Shown here: in pieces, positions 9,597 to 22,942 of the stretch
How positions within the stretch are numbered: the first letter of the stretch is position 1
How the letters are laid out: every line of letters begins with the position of its first letter
Assembly: GCF_029633825.1 (NCBI RefSeq)
Contig: NZ_CP090641.1
Location: 2,852,001 to 2,916,000 of the forward strand
DNA length: 64,000 bases
DNA from: Burkholderia contaminans
Lineage (GTDB): Bacteria > Pseudomonadota > Gammaproteobacteria > Burkholderiales > Burkholderiaceae
Reading direction: 5' to 3'
Notes under the pieces: generated by a model
What the model saw: only the letters and a program-made list of their open reading frames with translations
Database searches by the model: none
Told to the model about the DNA's origin: nothing
Translations under genes and position numbers: made by a program

Positions 9597-9692
9597 GGAA
9601 GGCATTCGTATCCGGTGGTACGGCTGGACTTCAAATCCAGTTGGGGGTGTCAGACACTCCCGGGTAGGTTCGACTCCTGCTGCCTTCCGCCA
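9597..9692 (+). tRNA. selC: tRNA-Sec (anticodon TCA)
   Basis: A 96-base gene with encoded CCA (9690-9692). It has an 8-bp acceptor stem (9597-9604 with 9681-9688), longer than a normal tRNA, an anticodon stem CTGGA/TCCAG with anticodon TCA at 9631-9633, and a long variable arm. These features define bacterial selenocysteine tRNA. It starts 33 bases after the restored selB end, so the whole selenocysteine machinery except selD is linked. Confidence 0.96.
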
Positions 9693-14963: not shown

Positions 14964-15412
14964 TTGAAACTCACCACACGTGAGACAGTCGTGTTGGGCC
15001 TGATTTCGCGAGGCCTTACCGACCGTGAAATCGCGGCCGAACTGTCCGTTTCCGTCTATACCGCGCGCAAGCATCGCGAAAATCTCCTCAATAAATTCGG
15101 CTTCAGGAAATCGGCGGAGCTGACCATGCGCTATTTCGCTCTTTTTCCTGATGTGCTCAAAAAAACGGTATTCGGCATCGTCCCGACCCGTTCTCGTCGC
15201 GCGAACGCGAAATCCTGAATCTGCTTGCCGCCGGCATGAGCGACAAGCAGGTCGCTCGCGCGCTCGGCATCAGCGACCAGACCGCCCGCAAGCATCGCGC
15301 GCATCTTCTCGGCAAGACCGGCTCGCCCAACATCTGCGCGCTTCTCCATACGGCCGTGCTGTCCGGCTGGCTCCCCGTTCCCTTTCACGTTACCGAGCCC
15401 GGCTCGCCGTAG
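14964..15412 (+). CDS. Double LuxR-type HTH regulator, frame broken at an A7 run
   Basis: Two LuxR-type DNA-binding domains lie in tandem. The first is TTRETVVLGLISRGLTDREI...SVSVYTARKHRENLL; the second, in the -1 frame, is FSSREREILNLLAAGMSDKQVARALGIS...TARKHRAHLLGKTG. The first frame alone ends at 15218 (84 residues). They join exactly if one A is added to, or the ribosome slips -1 on, the run of seven A at 15159-15165 (LKKNGIRHRPDPFSS). The product would be about 149 residues with no receiver or ligand domain, like GerE-type regulators. The start is TTG 14964, with GGGGAT upstream. It sits ahead of the repeat-protein cluster, which it may control. Confidence 0.7.
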
Positions 15413-15610
15413 CGAGACGCGTACCGCATTTGCCGTATGGAACCGGCAGGACCCGACTCGCAGAATCGATCTGCCGATTCGTCCGATGTTTCCGCCGACC
15501 CATGCGTACCGGGCCGATGGATGCGTGGACGGCCGGCATGTCGACGGCGCACACGACGCAGGGCCTGCGAGTCGTGCTCCGACTGATTCCTCTTCATTAA
15601 GGATTCGAAA

Positions 15611-16738
15611 ATGACTCATGTACACCATGCATTGCCGGGGGTATCGCACGCGGTCTCGGGATATGTTCCGGCTTACGCGACGGCGGTTGCGCAAGGGGAG
15701 TTCGCGCCGCAGGGCATCGGCGGCGCGGTCATCGGCACGGCCGCGCCGGTGCTCGGCGAGCTGCTCGGCCGGCTCGGCGGGCTGCTGCCGTTCGCCGCGC
15801 AGCCGCAGGCGGCGTTCGCACCGCAAGGCGTGTTCGGCGACATCCTGAAATCGGTCGCGCCGACCGTCGGCACGGTCGCGGGGCAACTGGGTGGGCTGCT
15901 GCCGTTCTCGGCTCAACCGCAAGCGGCGCTTGCGCCGCAAGGCATTGGCGGCGCGGTCATCGGCACGGCCGCGCCGGTGCTCGGTGAACTGCTCGGCCGG
16001 CTCGGCGGGCTGTTGCCGTTCGCTGCGCAGCCGCAGGCGGCGCTCGCACCGCAAGGCGTATTCGGCGACATCCTGAAATCGGTCGCGCCGACGATCGGCA
16101 CCGTCACCGGGCAACTGGGTGGGCTGCTGCCGTTCTCGGCCCAGCCTCAGGCGGCGTTCGCGCCGCAGGGTATCGGCGGTGCGGTCATCGGCACGGCCGC
16201 GCCGGTGCTCGGCGAGTTGCTCGGCCGGCTCGGCGGGTTGCTGCCGTTCTCGGCTCAACCCCAAGCAGCGTTCGCACCGCAGGGTGTATTCGGCGACATC
16301 CTGAAGTCGGTCGCGCCGACGGTCGGCACCGTCGCCGGGCAACTGGGTGGACTGCTGCCGTTCTCGGTCCAGCCGCAGGCGGCGTTCGCACCGCAAGGCG
16401 TGTTCGGCGACATCCTGAAGTCGGTCGCACCGACGGTCGGCACCGTCGCCGGGCAACTGGGTGGGTTGCTGCCGTTCTCGGTCCAGCCGCAGGCGGCGTT
16501 CGCACCGCAAGGCGTGTTCGGCGACATCCTGAAATCGGTCGCACCGACGGTCGGCACCGTCGCCGGGCAACTGGGTGGGTTGCTGCCGTTCTCGGCTCAG
16601 CCGCAGGCGGCGTTCGCGCCGCAAGGCATCGGCGGCGCCGTGATCGGCACCGCCGCGCCGGTACTCGGCGAGCTGCTCGGCCGGCTCGGTGGGCTGCTGC
16701 CGTTCGCGGCGATCCCCGCCCAGCCGGCATTCCACTGA
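15611..16738 (+). CDS. Tandem amphipathic-repeat protein (nine 38-residue repeats)
   Basis: A 375-residue protein of unknown function. After a 30-residue leader (MTHVHHALPGVSHAV...) come nine 38-residue units of two types. Type A begins FAPQGIGGAVIGTAAPVLGE; type B begins FAPQGVFGDILKSVAPTVGT. Both end GLLPF[AS][AV]QPQAA. The order is A-B-A-B-A-B-B-B-A. Each unit has an amphipathic or hydrophobic helix-like core and a Pro/Gln/Ala linker. There are no cysteines and no classical signal peptide. Start ATG 15611 follows TTAAGGATTCGAAA. It stands first in a run ahead of a subtilase gene, 161 bases away. It could be a pore-forming or structural polymer, or a precursor cut at its linkers. Confidence 0.85.
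   Translation: MTHVHHALPGVSHAVSGYVPAYATAVAQGEFAPQGIGGAVIGTAAPVLGELLGRLGGLLPFAAQPQAAFAPQGVFGDILKSVAPTVGTVAGQLGGLLPFSAQPQAALAPQGIGGAVIGTAAPVLGELLGRLGGLLPFAAQPQAALAPQGVFGDILKSVAPTIGTVTGQLGGLLPFSAQPQAAFAPQGIGGAVIGTAAPVLGELLGRLGGLLPFSAQPQAAFAPQGVFGDILKSVAPTVGTVAGQLGGLLPFSVQPQAAFAPQGVFGDILKSVAPTVGTVAGQLGGLLPFSVQPQAAFAPQGVFGDILKSVAPTVGTVAGQLGGLLPFSAQPQAAFAPQGIGGAVIGTAAPVLGELLGRLGGLLPFAAIPAQPAFH
15701..16735 (+). repeat. Nine tandem 114-bp repeats inside the repeat-protein gene
   Basis: Each unit is 114 bases (38 codons) and starts with the codons for [FL]APQG. Units 6, 7 and 8 (all type B, about 16271-16612) are nearly identical at DNA level, pointing to recent unequal crossing-over. Copy number is likely to vary between strains. 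The last unit diverges at its end (AAIPAQPAFH). Confidence 0.9.
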
Positions 16739-16899
16739 CCTGTCGCGACAGTAGACCTGCGCCACCCGCGGCCTCCGCGGTGGCGTATCCGATGGACGCG
16801 CGTCGCGCAACGACCCGATCGCTCCGGGGCGCGCGTCCGTCGCTTGCGACCGACTGACCCACGGCGTGCCTCGAGTGTCGCGCCACGAAGGAGATTGCG

Positions 16900-18600
16900 A
16901 TGGACAAGGACAAGAAGCCCGCCGCCGCGAAGGCGGCAGCCGTGCCGGCGGACGGTGCCGCCGCACCGGATGTCGTGCCGCCCGATTCGGCCGATGAAGC
17001 GGTTCATGTGACGAGCGGCAAGCGCCAGTATCTGATTGCGCCCCGGCGCGGCGTGCTTGCTCGCCAGGCCGCGGTGACCCCGATGTCGGCCCACGACCTC
17101 GACAATGCGGTCGGTCGGCTGCCCGGCGTCGAAGTCGTGCGCGTGATCAATAGCCACAAGAATGCACAGATGATGTCCGCGCGGCCCGACGAGGCGACCG
17201 ACACGTACGTCGTCAAGATGGACCCCGCGCACGCGCAGCTGCTGCAGGCGACGGCGCCGCCGGAAATGATCGTCGAGGAGGACCATCCGCTCGGCTACGG
17301 GAAAAAGCCGCAACAGGAGTCCGGGGCCGAGCTTCGTCCGCAGGCGGCGATTGCGTCGACCATCCTGCGCCCGGTGACGATCCGCGTGCTGGGCGCGGAC
17401 GATCAGCCCCAACCCGGCATTCCGGTGACGCTCACGGGCGACGGCTTCCCGGTGAGCGGCACGACCGACGCGCGAGGCGAAACGACGCTGGCCGTCGCGC
17501 AGATGGCGCCCGGTCCGCTCCAGTCGCTGGCGGTGCGGCCGTCGCACACGTACTGGAATGTCCACCTGTCGGCGCCGCTGCTGTCGAGCGATCAGGCGAA
17601 TGTGGTGCGCCTGACGCCGTTGTCGCAGCCGAACCCGAACGTGCCGCCGCATGCCCCCTTCGGGTGGGGGCAGCGCCTGATGGGCCTCGACGAGCTTCCC
17701 GCCACGGCGACGGGGCGCGGCGTGCGCGTCGCGATCGTCGATTCGGGGGCGGACGCGTCCCATCCGCTGCTGAACCATATCGTGCGCGGCGCCGATCTGA
17801 CCAACGACCAGAACCCGGATACGTGGAAGGACGACGTGATCGGCCACGGATCGCATTGCGCGGGCGTGATCGCCGCGCGCATCAGTCCGCAGGCTGCCGA
17901 CGCGCAGATGGCGATGCGCGGCTTCGCGCCCGACGCGGAGATTCACGTGCTGAAGATCTTTCCCGGCGGCCAGTTCAGCACGCTGATCCAGGCGCTCGAC
18001 TATTGCATCGATCACGACATCGACGTCGTGAACCTGAGCCTGGGCGCACCGCAGGCGTCGCTCGCGGTCGAGCAGAAGCTGATGGAGGCCGTGCAATCGG
18101 GCGTCGCATGTATCGTCGCGGCCGGCAATTCGGGCGGACCCGTCCAGTACCCGGCGTCGTCGCCATACGTGCTCGCGGTGTCGGCGCTGGGACTGCATCG
18201 CGAGTTGCCCGTCAACACGTGGGAGCAAACGCAAATCGTCGCGCAGGCTGCGACGGCTGAAGGCCTCTTCTCGCCGACGTTCTCATGCCACGGCCCGCAG
18301 ATCGGCGTGTGCGGACCGGGGGTGGGTGTCGTATCGACGGTGCCGGGCGCGGCGTTCAACGCCGAATCCGGCACCTCGATGGCGGCGCCGCACATCACGG
18401 GGCTCGCGGCGCTGCTGGTGAGCGATCCGCAGATCGCCGGCCATCTCGGGCCGCGCAGGCCGGAGCGCGTCGCCGCACTGTTTCAGCTGATCCGGATGAT
18501 CTGCACGCCGATCGTTCAGTACGACGTCACGAACCGCTTCGGCGCAGGCCTGCCGCGCTTCCAGAACCTTCGGCAGCTGTTGCAGCAGGCGGGCCGCTGA
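16900..18600 (+). CDS. Subtilisin-like serine protease (S8), no signal peptide
   Basis: A 566-residue peptidase. The catalytic triad is visible: Asp in VAIVDSGAD, His in GHGSHCAGVIAA and Ser in SGTSMAAPHITG; the oxyanion Asn is in AAGNSGG. The first ~270 residues form a prodomain-like region with a carboxypeptidase-regulatory-like beta segment (TIRVLGADDQPQPGIPVTLTGDG). The N-terminus is a charged, Ala-rich stretch (MDKDKKPAAAKAAAVPADGA), not a Sec or Tat signal, so export must be by another route or it acts inside the cell. AAGGAGA precedes ATG 16900. Located between the repeat protein and a secreted RNase T2-like protein; it is the obvious candidate to process the repeats. Confidence 0.88.
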   Translation: MDKDKKPAAAKAAAVPADGAAAPDVVPPDSADEAVHVTSGKRQYLIAPRRGVLARQAAVTPMSAHDLDNAVGRLPGVEVVRVINSHKNAQMMSARPDEATDTYVVKMDPAHAQLLQATAPPEMIVEEDHPLGYGKKPQQESGAELRPQAAIASTILRPVTIRVLGADDQPQPGIPVTLTGDGFPVSGTTDARGETTLAVAQMAPGPLQSLAVRPSHTYWNVHLSAPLLSSDQANVVRLTPLSQPNPNVPPHAPFGWGQRLMGLDELPATATGRGVRVAIVDSGADASHPLLNHIVRGADLTNDQNPDTWKDDVIGHGSHCAGVIAARISPQAADAQMAMRGFAPDAEIHVLKIFPGGQFSTLIQALDYCIDHDIDVVNLSLGAPQASLAVEQKLMEAVQSGVACIVAAGNSGGPVQYPASSPYVLAVSALGLHRELPVNTWEQTQIVAQAATAEGLFSPTFSCHGPQIGVCGPGVGVVSTVPGAAFNAESGTSMAAPHITGLAALLVSDPQIAGHLGPRRPERVAALFQLIRMICTPIVQYDVTNRFGAGLPRFQNLRQLLQQAGR

Positions 18601-18679
18601 CGGCGCGCGAGCCGCGCCGGCCGTCGGCCGATTCGTCGGCCGGCGCAAATCGTCACACACACACGAGGAGAACCACATC

Positions 18680-19339
18680 ATGTCGACCCTGTTACGCATG
18701 ACCCGGGCTGCCTGCGTCGCCAGCCTGATTCTGACCGGAGCCGGCGCGCACGCGCAGGACTGGACGCTGGCGCTGTCCTGGAAGCTCGGTGCGTGCGTCG
18801 GCGGCGAGGGTGCCCAGACGTGCACGGCAGGCCAGCCGTCAGCGGTGCGCCAGGCCGCCGACGGCGCGCCGATCCGGATCACGGCGATCGGCCTGTATAC
18901 GCCGCGGCGCGACTGCGACACGGCGCCGGTGCCGGCCGGCACGCTGTCCGACGATGCCGCGCCGTATATCGCACCCGCGAGCGCCGACGATTTCCAGCAG
19001 CACTGGAATCGCTACGGAAGCTGCACGGGGTACGCGCCCGCCGGTTACGCCGCCGAGATCGCGGCCATGGCGCGTGCGGTCGGCCTCACGAATCTCGGCC
19101 GCTACCTCGGCGAGCATGACAACAAGGTGGTGCGGCTCGACGAGCTGAAGAACGCGCAACTGCATGATTTCTTCCTCGGCGCGGACAAGTCCGTGCAGTT
19201 CCTGTGCACGCCCGACGGACGGCTCGCGGAAGTGCGCTACCGGCTGCGCGACTGGTCCGACGTGTTCGTGTATCGCGACAAGGGCGGCATGCTCGTCGTG
19301 GCGCAGGGCGGCAATTGCGGCGACGAAGTGCGGCTGTAG
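18680..19339 (+). CDS. Secreted RNase T2-like protein lacking catalytic residues
   Basis: A 219-residue exported protein; signal peptide residues 1-25 with cleavage after AHA. The mature part follows the RNase T2 plan: WTLALSWKLGAC matches the first strand, ITAIGLYTP aligns with the first active-site motif (FTIHGLWP), and FQQHWNRYGSC with the second (E-x-x-K-H-G-x-C). The catalytic His is replaced by Ile, and Glu, Lys and His by His, Arg and Tyr. The Cys pattern is kept. It is probably a binding or inhibitor version of the fold rather than a nuclease. The assignment is by motif, so moderate. A GAGGAGA ribosome site precedes ATG. It lies 79 bases after the protease and 34 before the next gene. 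Confidence 0.65.
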   Translation: MSTLLRMTRAACVASLILTGAGAHAQDWTLALSWKLGACVGGEGAQTCTAGQPSAVRQAADGAPIRITAIGLYTPRRDCDTAPVPAGTLSDDAAPYIAPASADDFQQHWNRYGSCTGYAPAGYAAEIAAMARAVGLTNLGRYLGEHDNKVVRLDELKNAQLHDFFLGADKSVQFLCTPDGRLAEVRYRLRDWSDVFVYRDKGGMLVVAQGGNCGDEVRL

Positions 19340-19373
19340 CGCACGTTGCGAGCCGACACGCGGGGGAGTCGAC

Positions 19374-20432
19374 ATGGAAACGCATCGTTCGTGGTTCAGG
19401 ACACAGGCGGACGAATCGCCCGCCGCGGACGGCGCTGACGCAGCCTCGTCGAGGCGCGATCTGGTCGGGCAGTTGCTGATCGAATGCAGCGCGATGGCGC
19501 GCTACGCGTTGCAGCACGGGATTGCCGTCGCCCCCGACCTGATCGCGCAATTGTCGATGCTGATGGCCGGGGTGCCGCATGCCGCGGCCGATACCGCGGT
19601 GGCCGATGCGTCGTCGGTGCACGGCGCATCGTACGCGCTTGCCGCGATTCATCGCCGGCTTGCCGTTGCGATCGCACCGGCCACGCCGCAGGCCGTCACG
19701 CTGCTCGACCGCGAACTGCGCGTCCGCTCGCGCCTTGCGTGGTTGGGGCCCGTGCCGCTGATTCGCGCGCTGACGCTGTCCGCCGCGACGTTCCTGGTCG
19801 CCGTGATCGCGACGTCGCTGTCGCCGGAAGTGTCCGTCGCGAATATCGACCAGGGGTTTCTCGATTCGCACGGCACCCAACTGCTGTGGAATGCGCTGTT
19901 CCTGCTGTTCTGCGCGGGGCTCGGCGCATCGTTTGCCACGCTGTTCCAGGCGCATCGCTACGTCGCGAATTCGACCTACGACCCGAAGTACGACGCGTCG
20001 TACGGCGCGCGGCTGATTCTCGGCGTGATCGCCGGCCTGATCCTGGTCGAGCTGCTGCCGCCGCACCTGTACGACGGCGGCAGCATGCGCAGTTTCGGCA
20101 AGCCGGCGCTTGCGATGCTCGGCGGGTTTTCGGCGACGGCCGTGCATCGGCTGCTGCACCGGCTCGTGGAGACGCTCGAGACGCTCGTGCGCGGCGATAC
20201 CGCTGCCGCCGCGCAGGCGACGTTCGAAGCGCATCGCGCCCATGCGGCGACCGAGCGCGTGCAATGGCAAAGCGAACTCGCGGCGGATCTGCTGCGGCTC
20301 CAGCAATCGCTTGAAGCGGGCATGCCGCCCGATGCAATCAAGCAGCGGCTCGCCGACTTCACGCGCGCGATGCTGTCGGCGGACGTGCCGCAGGCAGGGC
20401 GTCGCGACGGCGCAAGCGCAATCGGGGAATGA
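19374..20432 (+). CDS. Inner-membrane protein of unknown function
   Basis: 352 residues, no family recognised. Four hydrophobic segments occupy about residues 128-148, 163-183, 203-220 and 243-258, between a cytoplasmic-looking N-terminal domain of 120 residues and a C-terminal helical region rich in Ala, Gln and Arg (about 280-345). GGGGGAG precedes ATG 19374. Its stop overlaps the start of the next membrane protein (ATGA at 20429), so the two are translated together and may form one complex. Confidence 0.75.
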   Translation: METHRSWFRTQADESPAADGADAASSRRDLVGQLLIECSAMARYALQHGIAVAPDLIAQLSMLMAGVPHAAADTAVADASSVHGASYALAAIHRRLAVAIAPATPQAVTLLDRELRVRSRLAWLGPVPLIRALTLSAATFLVAVIATSLSPEVSVANIDQGFLDSHGTQLLWNALFLLFCAGLGASFATLFQAHRYVANSTYDPKYDASYGARLILGVIAGLILVELLPPHLYDGGSMRSFGKPALAMLGGFSATAVHRLLHRLVETLETLVRGDTAAAAQATFEAHRAHAATERVQWQSELAADLLRLQQSLEAGMPPDAIKQRLADFTRAMLSADVPQAGRRDGASAIGE

Positions 20433-21385
20433 CCATGCTCTTTCTTTACAACTGGCCGTCGTGGCTGATGGGGTTGTTCATCGTGATCGCAACCGTGTCG
20501 GCAGCGCTGGGCGCCTATGCGCTGTTCCGGTGCATCCTGCCCGTCGACCTGCTGCCCGAGCAGCGGGCGATGGCGATCACGATGGTGTCGGTCATCACGA
20601 CGATCAACTCGTTGCTCATCGCGTTTTCGGCGATCAGCGTGTGGGACGCCTACAACGGCGCGGAGCACACCGTCGAGGCGGAGGCGACCGCGGCCGGCGA
20701 GCTGTCGCGCGATCTCGCCGCATTCGGCGACCCGGTCGCCAATGCGGCGCGCGACGCGCTGCGTGCCTATCTCGACGGCGTCGTCCGTGACGAGTGGCCG
20801 AAGATGCAGCAGCAGGCAAGCGCGGATGCGCAGGCGGCGGCCCGCTTCGATCTCCTGTTCGACCTGGCGAACCGGATCGAGCCGCGCAGCGAACGGCAGC
20901 GCGTGCTGCTCGGCGAGGTGCTCGCGCGAGCGAACGAAATGGCGAAGCATCGCGAACAGCGCCTGCTGACGCTCGACGCGGCGATGCCGGTCACGCTGTG
21001 GGGCGTGGTGGTGCTCACGAGCGTCTTGTCGTTTCTGCTGCTCTACCTCCTCCCGGGTACGCGTTTCCACATCGCGCTCGTGACGAGCTGGGCGCTCACG
21101 CTCGGCCTCGCGTTCTTCTTCGTGCTTGCCGTCGACCGTCCGTTCGCGGGCGAAGTCAGCGTCAAGCCCGAGCCGCTGCGCGCGATCGTCGCTGCGATGG
21201 ACGGGCAATCGCGGCGTAGCGGCCCGGCCGCGTCGCGCGACGTTCCGGCATTGCCGCGCAGCCGGCGGCGGACGCGCGCGGACGACGCGGCCGTGGCGTC
21301 CGCCACGACCGTTTCCCCACCGCCGGGCGAGCGCACCACGCGCCTGCCTGATCAGATGCAAGGAGACCACGATGACACTCGATGA
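20429..21385 (+). CDS. DUF4239 bestrophin-like membrane protein
   Basis: 318 residues with two N-terminal membrane segments (about 8-30 and 45-70, the latter around ITMVSVITTINSLLIAFSAISVW), a soluble helical middle, two C-terminal segments (about 188-207 and 215-235) and a basic, disordered tail. The layout and the central helices match DUF4239 proteins, distantly related to bestrophin channels. It overlaps the preceding gene by 4 bases and the following GH19 gene by 14, so all three are coupled. A channel or pore role is inference. Confidence 0.75.
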   Translation: MTMLFLYNWPSWLMGLFIVIATVSAALGAYALFRCILPVDLLPEQRAMAITMVSVITTINSLLIAFSAISVWDAYNGAEHTVEAEATAAGELSRDLAAFGDPVANAARDALRAYLDGVVRDEWPKMQQQASADAQAAARFDLLFDLANRIEPRSERQRVLLGEVLARANEMAKHREQRLLTLDAAMPVTLWGVVVLTSVLSFLLLYLLPGTRFHIALVTSWALTLGLAFFFVLAVDRPFAGEVSVKPEPLRAIVAAMDGQSRRSGPAASRDVPALPRSRRRTRADDAAVASATTVSPPPGERTTRLPDQMQGDHDDTR

Positions 21386-21914
21386 ATTCCGGGCCGCCGC
21401 CGCCGTGTCCGCCACGCTCGCGCAACGCTGGCATCCGGCGCTTGCCGACGCGATGGCCGAGTTCGGCATTTCGACACCTGCACGCGTGGCGGCGTTCGTC
21501 GCGCAAACAGGCCACGAGACGCTCGGCTTCACGCTCACGCGCGAGTTGTGGGGGCCGACAGCCGCGCAGCGCGCGTATGAGCCGCCGTCGCGCAAGGCTA
21601 TCGAGCTCGGCAATGCTCAGCCGGGCGACGGCAGGCGCTTCCTCGGACGCGGGCTCATCCAGATCACGGGGCGTACGAACTATCGCGAATGCGGCAACGC
21701 GCTGGGTGTCGATCTGGAGCGCGAGCCGGAACGCCTCGAGCACGAACCGCTGGCCGCGCGTTCGGCGGCCTGGTGGTGGGCGCGGCACGGTTGCAACGCG
21801 ATCGCCGACTCGGGCGATTTCGTGTCGCTGACGAAACGCATCAACGGCGGCGTCAACGGACTCGAGGACCGGATGCGCCGATGGGCGATCGCGAAGCAGG
21901 CGATGTGTCTGTGA
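21372..21914 (+). CDS. GH19 family chitinase/endolysin-like enzyme
   Basis: A 180-residue hydrolase of the compact bacterial/phage GH19 type. The catalytic Glu is in QTGHETLGF (residue about 50), followed by RFLGRGLIQITGRTNY, the family's second signature. Such proteins cut chitin or peptidoglycan and are common as phage endolysins. There is no signal peptide, so access to the wall would need a holin-like pore or lysis. The start overlaps the DUF4239 gene by 14 bases, with AAGGAGA at 21360-21366. Two membrane proteins directly upstream make a lysis-cassette arrangement. Confidence 0.85.
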   Translation: MTLDEFRAAAAVSATLAQRWHPALADAMAEFGISTPARVAAFVAQTGHETLGFTLTRELWGPTAAQRAYEPPSRKAIELGNAQPGDGRRFLGRGLIQITGRTNYRECGNALGVDLEREPERLEHEPLAARSAAWWWARHGCNAIADSGDFVSLTKRINGGVNGLEDRMRRWAIAKQAMCL

Positions 21915-21961
21915 GTGTGCGGCATGCAGCGAGGACTGACCAACCAACGGAGGGCAATATC

Positions 21962-22942
21962 ATGAACGCGCGAATCTGGGGTGAATTCAAAACGATACGG
22001 GGTGCGTTGATCGCGGCGGCGATCGCGGTGGGCGCGCTGCCAGGGTACGCAATGGCGGAAATCGAATGCCAGCGTGTCACCGTGAAAGAGGGGAGCGCGT
22101 TGAATTCGACGTGGGGAAAAGACCTGCATCATCTGCAAAGCACCGGCGATGTCGACAATACCGTCAACTCGCTGTGCAGCCCCGACTGGGTTCATGCCGA
22201 CGATTACTGGCTCTATGGCAACTATTACCCGCTCCACCGCGGGCATTCCAAGCAGGGCGATGGCGCGCGCCTGTTCGTCCAGTCGAGGCCGAAACAGCCC
22301 GAGCTGGCCCGATACCTTTGCAAGGACACTGGCGTGAATGGTGCGATACCGTATGAGAAGGCGACGCCGATCGGCGTATTCGCTTACGAAACCTTCGTGC
22401 CGAAGACGTCGAAGGCGACCGACATCGCGAAGCAAGTTGAATTGCATGTGCTGTGCGTAGACAGGAACGCGCGAGGACAGGGGCTGGGCATCCAGATACT
22501 CAATGAGGCTGTGCAGCGCGTGACTGAGGGCGTCAGTGACGACAAGAGGGTTCGCATGCAGCTGACCTCGCACGTGAAGGCGCACGATTTCTACGACAGG
22601 CTCGACATGACATGCCGTGACGAAGGAGAAAGCGGTGCCATCGCGCGTGTCTACGAGCGCACACTGACCCACGGCGAGCGTATCGAAAGGCGTCGTCCGA
22701 TCTATTACATGGACTTGCATGACAACGGGCAATGCAAACGAGTGACGTTCGGCTGTGGCCATCGAGACAACTATGACAAGCTGCGAAAACTGGCGTTCGA
22801 CTCGGAAGCAAGTTACGAGCACGGACACGACAACGAGGTATTTTTTATCGGTGACTGGGCGGGCGACTACGGGTGCGACGCTGACGCGGCGCCGATAAGT
22901 TACGACGACGTGATCCGGAAGCTGGACGGTCACACCCAATGA
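21962..22942 (+). CDS. Exported GNAT-like acetyltransferase-domain protein
   Basis: 326 residues with a signal peptide (about residues 1-32, ending GYAMA). The middle has the acetyl-CoA binding pattern of GNAT enzymes (VELHVLCVDRNARGQGLGIQ, about residues 160-179) followed by the typical helix and HDFYDRLDM near 205. Several cysteines suggest disulfides. GNAT enzymes need acetyl-CoA, which is absent from the periplasm, so an exported one is odd: it may act in another cell, bind another ligand, or be inactive. GGAGGG precedes ATG 21962. It starts 47 bases after the GH19 gene. Confidence 0.6.
   Translation: MNARIWGEFKTIRGALIAAAIAVGALPGYAMAEIECQRVTVKEGSALNSTWGKDLHHLQSTGDVDNTVNSLCSPDWVHADDYWLYGNYYPLHRGHSKQGDGARLFVQSRPKQPELARYLCKDTGVNGAIPYEKATPIGVFAYETFVPKTSKATDIAKQVELHVLCVDRNARGQGLGIQILNEAVQRVTEGVSDDKRVRMQLTSHVKAHDFYDRLDMTCRDEGESGAIARVYERTLTHGERIERRRPIYYMDLHDNGQCKRVTFGCGHRDNYDKLRKLAFDSEASYEHGHDNEVFFIGDWAGDYGCDADAAPISYDDVIRKLDGHTQ

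Follow-up and report, generated by a model that had tools for sequence, protein, structure and literature searches.

A conserved regulator, repeat-protein, subtilase and endolysin cassette in Burkholderia contaminans, with a possible role in envelope opening

We analyzed a window of DNA from Burkholderia contaminans (the whole stretch of 64,000 nucleotides; contig NZ_CP090641.1, positions 2,852,001 to 2,916,000), in which a run of co-directional genes occupies window positions 14,964 to 22,942. It comprises a regulator gene with two helix-turn-helix (HTH) domains, a tandem-repeat protein (rep), a subtilase, a degenerate RNase T2-like protein, two membrane proteins (TM1 and a Bestrophin-like protein) and a GH19 endolysin. 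Judging from comparison of genes across genomes rather than from a formal test, this gene set is a genuine conserved system, and the neighbourhood is not due to chance. Sequence evidence gives good support to both the cassette and its switch. Our best single reading, which we hold tentatively, is an inducible self-contained cassette whose TM1, Bestrophin-like and endolysin part would open the envelope and free rep and the protease.

Conservation of the cassette

An initial annotation of the window had listed these genes with the gaps between them (161, 79, 34, −4, −14 and 47 bases), and all were recovered exactly when re-read from the sequence. Domain calls were drawn from Pfam, NCBIfam and PHROGs. 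The features are as follows.

14964..15218, + strand: HTH1, a LuxR-type (GerE) HTH in frame 0 with a TTG start (Pfam GerE, E 7.5e-11); the same position is ATG in Cupriavidus loci.
15159..15165, + strand: A7 slippery run (CTC AAA AAA ACG), the predicted −1 shift site.
15152..15412, + strand: HTH2, LuxR-type like HTH1 but in the −1 frame (GerE on the stretch beyond 15236, E 5.2e-5; 23.2 bits, cut-off 23.5).
15422..15440, + strand: conserved site TACCGCATTTGCC-N2-ATGG, a predicted control element of rep.
15611..16738, + strand: rep, a repeat protein of 9 units of 38–40 amino acids (aa), lacking an N-terminal hydrophobic segment.
16758..16787, + strand: GC-rich hairpin 3' of rep, putatively a partial terminator or stabiliser (z −1.13).
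16900..18600, + strand: subtilase (S8) with a propeptide-like N-terminal domain and residues D281, H316 and S493 (Pfam E 4.9e-38; alignment with subtilisin BPN').
18680..19339, + strand: RNase T2-like protein lacking the catalytic His (NCBIfam E 6e-4, phmmer E 0.2); signal peptide by eye only.
19374..20432, + strand: TM1, a membrane protein with 3 predicted transmembrane segments and a conserved non-membrane N-terminal half (hydropathy; alignment of 37).
20429..21385, + strand: Bestrophin-like (PF14023) membrane protein (Pfam E 4e-49; hydropathy); the family was formerly called DUF4239.
21372..21914, + strand: GH19 phage-type endolysin lacking an N-terminal hydrophobic segment (Pfam E 1.6e-12; PHROG E 1.4e-66).
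21962..22942, + strand: GNAT-domain protein with a hydrophobic signal-like N-terminus, an optional member (Pfam E 6.7e-6).

Among 65 genomes of the genus, rep was found in four. A close subtilase (at least 94%) occurred in the same four, with some subtilase match in 43 of the 65 and the next best at 34%, and the closest GH19 proteins (at least 87%) occurred in exactly these four cassette genomes, with some GH19 match in 22. In a sample of 299 genomes of the family, rep was present in 14 and TM1 in 38, and TM1 lay within 3 kb of rep in every rep-positive genome (14/14). By tblastn, the order rep, subtilase, (T2-like), TM1, Bestrophin-like, GH19 is common to four genera: the arrangement HTH1-HTH2-rep-subtilase-T2-TM1-Bestrophin-like-GH19 occurs in Burkholderia and two further genera (G112 and G128), and Cupriavidus shows the same order but lacks the T2-like gene, and its HTH gene is divergent. 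The cassette is also carried by B. puraquae and B. lata. The flanks vary between these groups, although three of the four Burkholderia have a right flank in common. Every one of the 12 distinct Burkholderiaceae loci that hold the GH19 region retains the gene, and GH19 is 63–91% conserved in differing contexts within the family, and the GNAT gene is present in two of the five other Burkholderia-type loci holding that region (L052 and L056, but not L050, L051 or L055). In Duganella guangzhouensis (L067), the order is a divergent HTH gene, rep, subtilase, a polyhydroxyalkanoate (PHA) depolymerase gene, a gene for a 160-aa protein and GH19. The initial annotation had proposed that these genes form a system and had named homologues lying mostly apart as the outcome that would speak against it. 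Instead, order and proximity are conserved across Burkholderia, G112, G128 and Cupriavidus among differing flanking genes, which bears the proposal out.

Upstream of the cassette in the window lies a tRNA-Sec gene (9597–9692), separated from it by about 5.3 kb and three called genes; B. puraquae likewise has a tRNA-Sec gene (L050, 5379–5474) about 1.1 kb upstream. Because tRNA-Sec lies upstream in both, we place the cassette in the selC region in these two; the scan found no tRNA-Sec in the other 11 loci scanned.

Regulator gene and 19-bp site

The regulator had been described as one double-HTH gene. Both HTH domains are present, but they do not share a reading frame: HTH1 lies in frame 0 and HTH2 in the −1 frame, with the same 272-nucleotide offset across loci. 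We read this gene in 13 loci (the window, three other Burkholderia, G112, G128, six Cupriavidus and D. guangzhouensis; duplicate contigs omitted). In all 13, a run of 6–7 A begins at nucleotide 195 of the open reading frame (ORF), at a codon boundary, and places the slippery motif in zero-frame register (AAA AAA codons, A_AAA). The A7 run is the sole A/T run of at least 7 in the 64 kb of the window. The −1 frame has a stop at nucleotide 185 or 194 in 12 of the 13 loci (nucleotide 62 in L055). In frame 0, the stop falls at nucleotides 207–273; in L067, the stops bracket nucleotides 194–207, leaving little besides the A-run.

Both frames are under purifying selection as protein. Across 10 pairs that have sequences in common and so are not independent of one another, the ratio of nonsynonymous to synonymous changes (pN/pS) of HTH2 was 0.12–0.52 in the −1 frame against 0.73–5.77 in the other two frames. 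For HTH1 it was 0.18–0.88 in frame 0, the value of 0.88 coming from a pair (L054/L058) with only 5 changes. The conserved A-run, together with purifying selection in the −1 frame, implies a programmed −1 shift, ribosomal or transcriptional, that would join HTH1 to HTH2. Folding gave z values of −1.5 to +1.2 in five sequences and revealed no conserved 3' stimulatory structure among them. In the window, the first ATG, GTG or TTG of the −1 frame (nucleotide 272) falls within the HTH of HTH2. In L056, L058 and L067, a TTG or GTG of this frame lies between the A-run and the HTH core, and HTH2 may be initiated internally there.

The site TACCGCATTTGCC-N2-ATGG sits between the HTH gene and rep and is oriented as rep. 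In its own 9.4-Mb genome, it has one exact match (the cassette), one match at 2 mismatches and 14 at 3, against a total of 8 at up to 3 mismatches for a reversed-pattern control; in the window, 0.01 matches would be expected at up to 3 mismatches. We also searched 16 genomes (13 cassette genomes together with G002, G085 and G377) at up to 2 mismatches. Exact copies were confined to cassettes, once each in G018, G030, G033 and G128 and twice each in eight Cupriavidus genomes, and the G112 copy deviates at one position. Allowing up to 1 mismatch, the site is cassette-specific in all 14 cassette genomes. At 2 mismatches, scattered non-cassette matches appear (4 in total for the control pattern), with none in G002 and G377 and one in G085. 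The second copy precedes the PHA depolymerase gene in the six Cupriavidus genomes read, and D. guangzhouensis has the site with 1 mismatch ahead of rep. With this conserved site, specific to the cassette, as its neighbour, the HTH gene very probably acts as the switch of the cassette, as the initial annotation had suggested, and the HTH protein is predicted to bind the site. G112 also has a second variant site (TACCTCATTTGCCGAATAG) at L055 12944, 2.6 kb from the first, and a similar one is found elsewhere in G128.

Gene products and their occurrence beyond the complete cassette

The rep array is a real tandem repeat (Tandem Repeats Finder score 1474). Each of its 9 units has one acidic and one basic residue and is net neutral, with a grand average of hydropathy of 0.53–0.86. 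GxxxG motifs occur in the units, and for seven chosen unit types the helical moment of the best 18-residue stretch was reached by only 0–4% of shuffles. A structure model shows helical beads at low confidence (predicted local distance difference test, pLDDT, 49.8), and rep had no Pfam or NCBIfam match above cut-off. The rep homologues P0003, P0013, P0014, P0028, L055, L056, L063, L068 and L069 terminate in His preceded by a hydrophobic residue (AFH, ALH, IYH, TLH, MVH, TIH), and P0017, P0019, P0021, P0025 and L073 do not; this ending is possibly a C-terminal recognition tail.

The 3' ends of rep genes fold better than those of other genes (mean z −2.06, n = 22, against −0.69, n = 98; Mann-Whitney P = 4e-5), as do those of the subtilase genes (mean z −2.50, n = 22). 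For these values, gene ends came from a simple custom caller; we excluded five loci that were duplicates or had bad rep ends, along with ends shorter than 80 nucleotides, and sampled about 35% of other genes.

The catalytic triad of the subtilase is intact in the BPN' alignment. As candidate identities, the cyanobactin protease PatA, mycosin and IetS were rejected, with 33 against 421, 110 against 279 and 27 against 900 bits, respectively, under the curated cut-offs. That rep, the protease and GH19 lack signal peptides, as the initial annotation had stated, agrees with the absence of N-terminal hydrophobic stretches from all three, as judged by a hydropathy scan rather than a signal-peptide predictor. 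Its description of a dead RNase T2-like protein also stands: kinship to RNase I is weak, and the catalytic His residues at what we take to be the CAS I and CAS II (conserved active-site) motifs are absent in all six aligned sequences, including that of the window, where alignment to RNase I (2ea1) shows KH replaced by RY at CAS II. The hydropathy scan lists no segment for this protein.

TM1 has 352 aa and a structure model with a mean pLDDT of 74.7; 305 proteins were found, 120 of them listed, and 37 sequences were aligned. The GH19 protein matches endolysins in the PDB and aligns with the PWe2 endolysin over the GHE...TRE region, which holds the catalytic Glu.

A repeat-unit profile recovered 22 named rep loci in Burkholderiales (Cupriavidus, Burkholderia, Duganella, Massilia, Rugamonas, Noviherbaspirillum and further Oxalobacteraceae), in a bin assigned to Sneathiella and in one assigned to Arenicellales. 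The subtilase adjoins rep in 20 of them, and in the other two (L064 and L078) rep reaches the contig end. In nine Oxalobacteraceae loci, a small ORF of about 98 aa (C6) lies between rep and subtilase. Because it is related to the N-terminal domain of the subtilase (hhalign probability 98.1% over 68 columns; hmmsearch matches to that domain in several subtilases), C6 is read as a putative stand-alone inhibitor.

TM1 also occurs without rep in 24 genomes, of which 13 loci were read. Three belong to the genus g24. In each of the other ten, which we call the sister cassette, a LuxR-type gene and a DUF2589 gene adjoin TM1, and seven of these loci extend further, with families assigned from single representatives: a GH24 phage-type lysozyme and repeated genes for proteins of about 205 aa (C0) in all seven, and a PHA depolymerase and a phasin-like gene in six each. 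The Bestrophin-like gene is present in two of the ten. Across L083–L092, sister cassettes hold a DUF2589 pair, GH24, the depolymerase, the phasin-like protein and 2–3 tandem proteins of about 205 aa that have no Pfam match. Three sister proteins match Phasin_2 weakly (E 4e-5 to 9e-4), just under the Pfam cut-off.

The PHA depolymerase is not restricted to the sister cassette, as tblastn finds a homologue within the rep cassette in all six Cupriavidus genomes read and in D. guangzhouensis. The two depolymerases run (L060 and L067) score above the cut-off of the NCBIfam model e_dPHAscl_type2. A phasin-like gene is present in three of the six Cupriavidus rep cassettes (tblastn). Beside the depolymerase and phasin-like genes, L060 (4490–6733) has a gene for a phospholipase C that matches a Tat signal weakly; its gene cluster (C11) occurs in seven Cupriavidus loci, the family having been tested on L060 only. 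In G112, a GH24-like stretch (37%; L055, 1523–1903) lies about 2 kb past GH19.

Candidate mechanisms and known systems

If the cassette is an inducible opening device, the following steps can be envisaged. A −1 ribosomal (or transcriptional) slip would yield the full double-HTH regulator, which would act at the 19-bp site and cause much rep to be made. Rep would form amphipathic, uncharged, glycine-zipper-like helices coating the membrane, a granule or each other, and the protease would be kept latent by its own N-terminal domain. TM1 and the Bestrophin-like protein would give the signal-less GH19 lysin access to the wall, the envelope would open in some or all cells, and polymer and protease would come out. 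In the sister cassette, this device would serve a different cargo. An excess of rep would fit the hairpins after rep, and the amphipathic neutral units are likewise counted in favour of this reading, as are the gene order kept in four genera, the closeness of rep and TM1, the A-run with selection on the −1 frame and the cassette-specific site. Wall opening is favoured because TM1 is found with two unrelated endolysins, GH19 and GH24, in two cassette types.

Several observations weigh against it. Searches of Pfam, NCBIfam and PHROGs gave no holin match for TM1 or the Bestrophin-like protein, and Foldseek returned nothing for TM1 at E 0.001; a new holin family would be compatible with this lack of a match. 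In g24, all three loci read (of 12 such genomes) have TM1 and the Bestrophin-like gene beside unrelated genes, without GH19 or GH24. Conversely, by tblastn, the rep and subtilase loci of Oxalobacteraceae lack TM1, GH19 and GH24 (other lysin families were not searched), except that D. guangzhouensis has GH19 and no TM1, and one Arenicellales bin has rep and subtilase without TM1, GH19 or GH24 homologues. Some 2.5–3.5 kb separate TM1 from GH24 in the sister cassette, and with the intervening LuxR-type regulator on the opposite strand, TM1 may be transcribed apart from the rest. In the cassette itself, hairpins may part rep and subtilase from the membrane and lysin genes, giving several transcripts or an attenuated one. 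Release by controlled wall opening, the idea of the initial annotation, is plausible; it draws strength from the two endolysin families near TM1 and is limited by the missing holin match, by lysin-free TM1 loci and by TM1-free rep loci.

The same loci speak for a smaller unit, made up of rep and subtilase only (plus the stand-alone inhibitor domain in Oxalobacteraceae), in which a granule-, membrane- or matrix-forming polymer is remodelled by the protease, and TM1, the Bestrophin-like protein and GH19 have a separate function under the same control in Burkholderiaceae. The pairing in 20 of 22 loci with the remaining two at contig ends, the interposed C6, the absence of TM1 and, except for the GH19 of L067, of both lysins from Oxalobacteraceae, and the hairpins after rep and subtilase are all consistent with this. 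However, Burkholderiaceae keep TM1 near rep in every rep-positive genome and GH19 in every locus holding its region, and in D. guangzhouensis GH19 follows rep, subtilase and depolymerase; we regard this alternative as somewhat unlikely. Another alternative is granule harvest or self-digestion, in which the endolysin opens the cell's own or other cells, the subtilase digests protein, the extracellular PHA depolymerase digests polyhydroxybutyrate (PHB), and phasin-like and repeat proteins coat the freed PHA granules. The recurrence of the depolymerase in Cupriavidus and D. guangzhouensis cassettes, the 19-bp site before it in Cupriavidus, its company with a phasin-like gene in six of the seven complete sister loci and the weak Phasin_2 matches would all fit, but Burkholderia, G112 and G128 loci have no depolymerase or phasin-like homologue (tblastn), the three phasin matches stay under the Pfam cut-off, the Cupriavidus and Duganella phasin-like proteins (one tested from each) have no match, and the T2-like "nuclease" lacks its catalytic His. 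This leaves granule harvest decidedly doubtful.

Killing or defence, the second role suggested by the initial annotation, would make rep a polyprotein from which the subtilase cuts membrane-active peptides. One rep unit is weakly similar to frog antimicrobial peptides (E 0.024, under the cut-off), the units carry GxxxG motifs, and PADLOC matches the protease to its profiles for subtilase (E 1.9e-24) and for IetS (E 3e-8). Against this, every unit is net neutral, the IetS score is far below its curated cut-off (27 against 900), PADLOC matches beyond the protease only HTH1 (a CARF-protein profile), and no immunity gene was recognised, though no search aimed at one was made. Nothing beyond generic subtilase profiles favours such a module, and we consider it highly improbable. 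A phage lysis remnant or chance neighbourhood, to which the phage-type GH19 might point, has next to no probability: TM1 and the Bestrophin-like protein have no PHROG match, and GH19 is conserved in differing Burkholderiaceae contexts, with its closest relatives only in the four cassette genomes of the genus.

Returning to envelope opening, a more elaborate version can be proposed, which we consider rather unlikely as a whole. A frameshift-gated regulator with a dedicated operator would control a modular opening device, consisting of a new TM1 family and interchangeable endolysins (GH19 or GH24), for programmed release or granule harvest; the cargo would be the granule- or membrane-coating rep polymer and its protease or DUF2589 proteins, with PHA-degrading enzymes. 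If true, this would be a form of release in which the membrane component is no known holin and in which lysin and cargo vary by cassette type. It would also provide an unusually clean test case, a host transcription factor that is apparently produced by recoding and has its own operator. Extracellular PHA depolymerases and phasin-like proteins are linked to the cassette by TM1 and, in Cupriavidus, by the same site; this link is relevant to how an intracellular storage polymer becomes public.

Among known proteins, rep resembles the glycine-zipper and granule-coat proteins (phasins, perilipins and Cdz bacteriocins) in its uncharged, amphipathic, GxxxG-rich helical repeats, and differs in having no match above cut-off, PQ-rich linkers and a model of low pLDDT. 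The subtilase shares, by sequence, the catalytic triad and the S8 family with subtilisin BPN'-type proteases that have a propeptide. In contrast to these, it has no visible signal peptide, has an extra domain between its N-domain and catalytic domain, is adjoined by rep in nearly all named loci, and has an N-domain that is also a separate gene in Oxalobacteraceae.

The HTH gene shares with bacterial Z_ZZN −1 frameshifting (PMC4066793) an in-frame A_AAA tetramer and a conserved two-frame overlap, whereas here the gene is a host regulator with two LuxR HTHs, its shift is predicted, and no conserved 3' structure was found. The closest parallel for the whole cassette is type 10 secretion by a holin and a peptidoglycan hydrolase (Serratia ChiW/ChiX and the Salmonella chiA operon; PMC10109510 and PMC9527704). 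There, as here, an endolysin-type wall hydrolase, membrane proteins, a cargo enzyme and a regulator lie in one locus. The cassette shares the endolysin-type peptidoglycan hydrolase and has subtilase and rep, the putative cargo, in the same gene run. It would work like a type 10 secretion locus, but for want of a recognised holin we do not file it as one. It also differs in the large size of TM1 and its conserved non-membrane half, in the occurrence of TM1 plus Bestrophin-like protein without GH19 or GH24, in its putative cargo of rep and a subtilase, and in the frameshift junction of the regulator gene.

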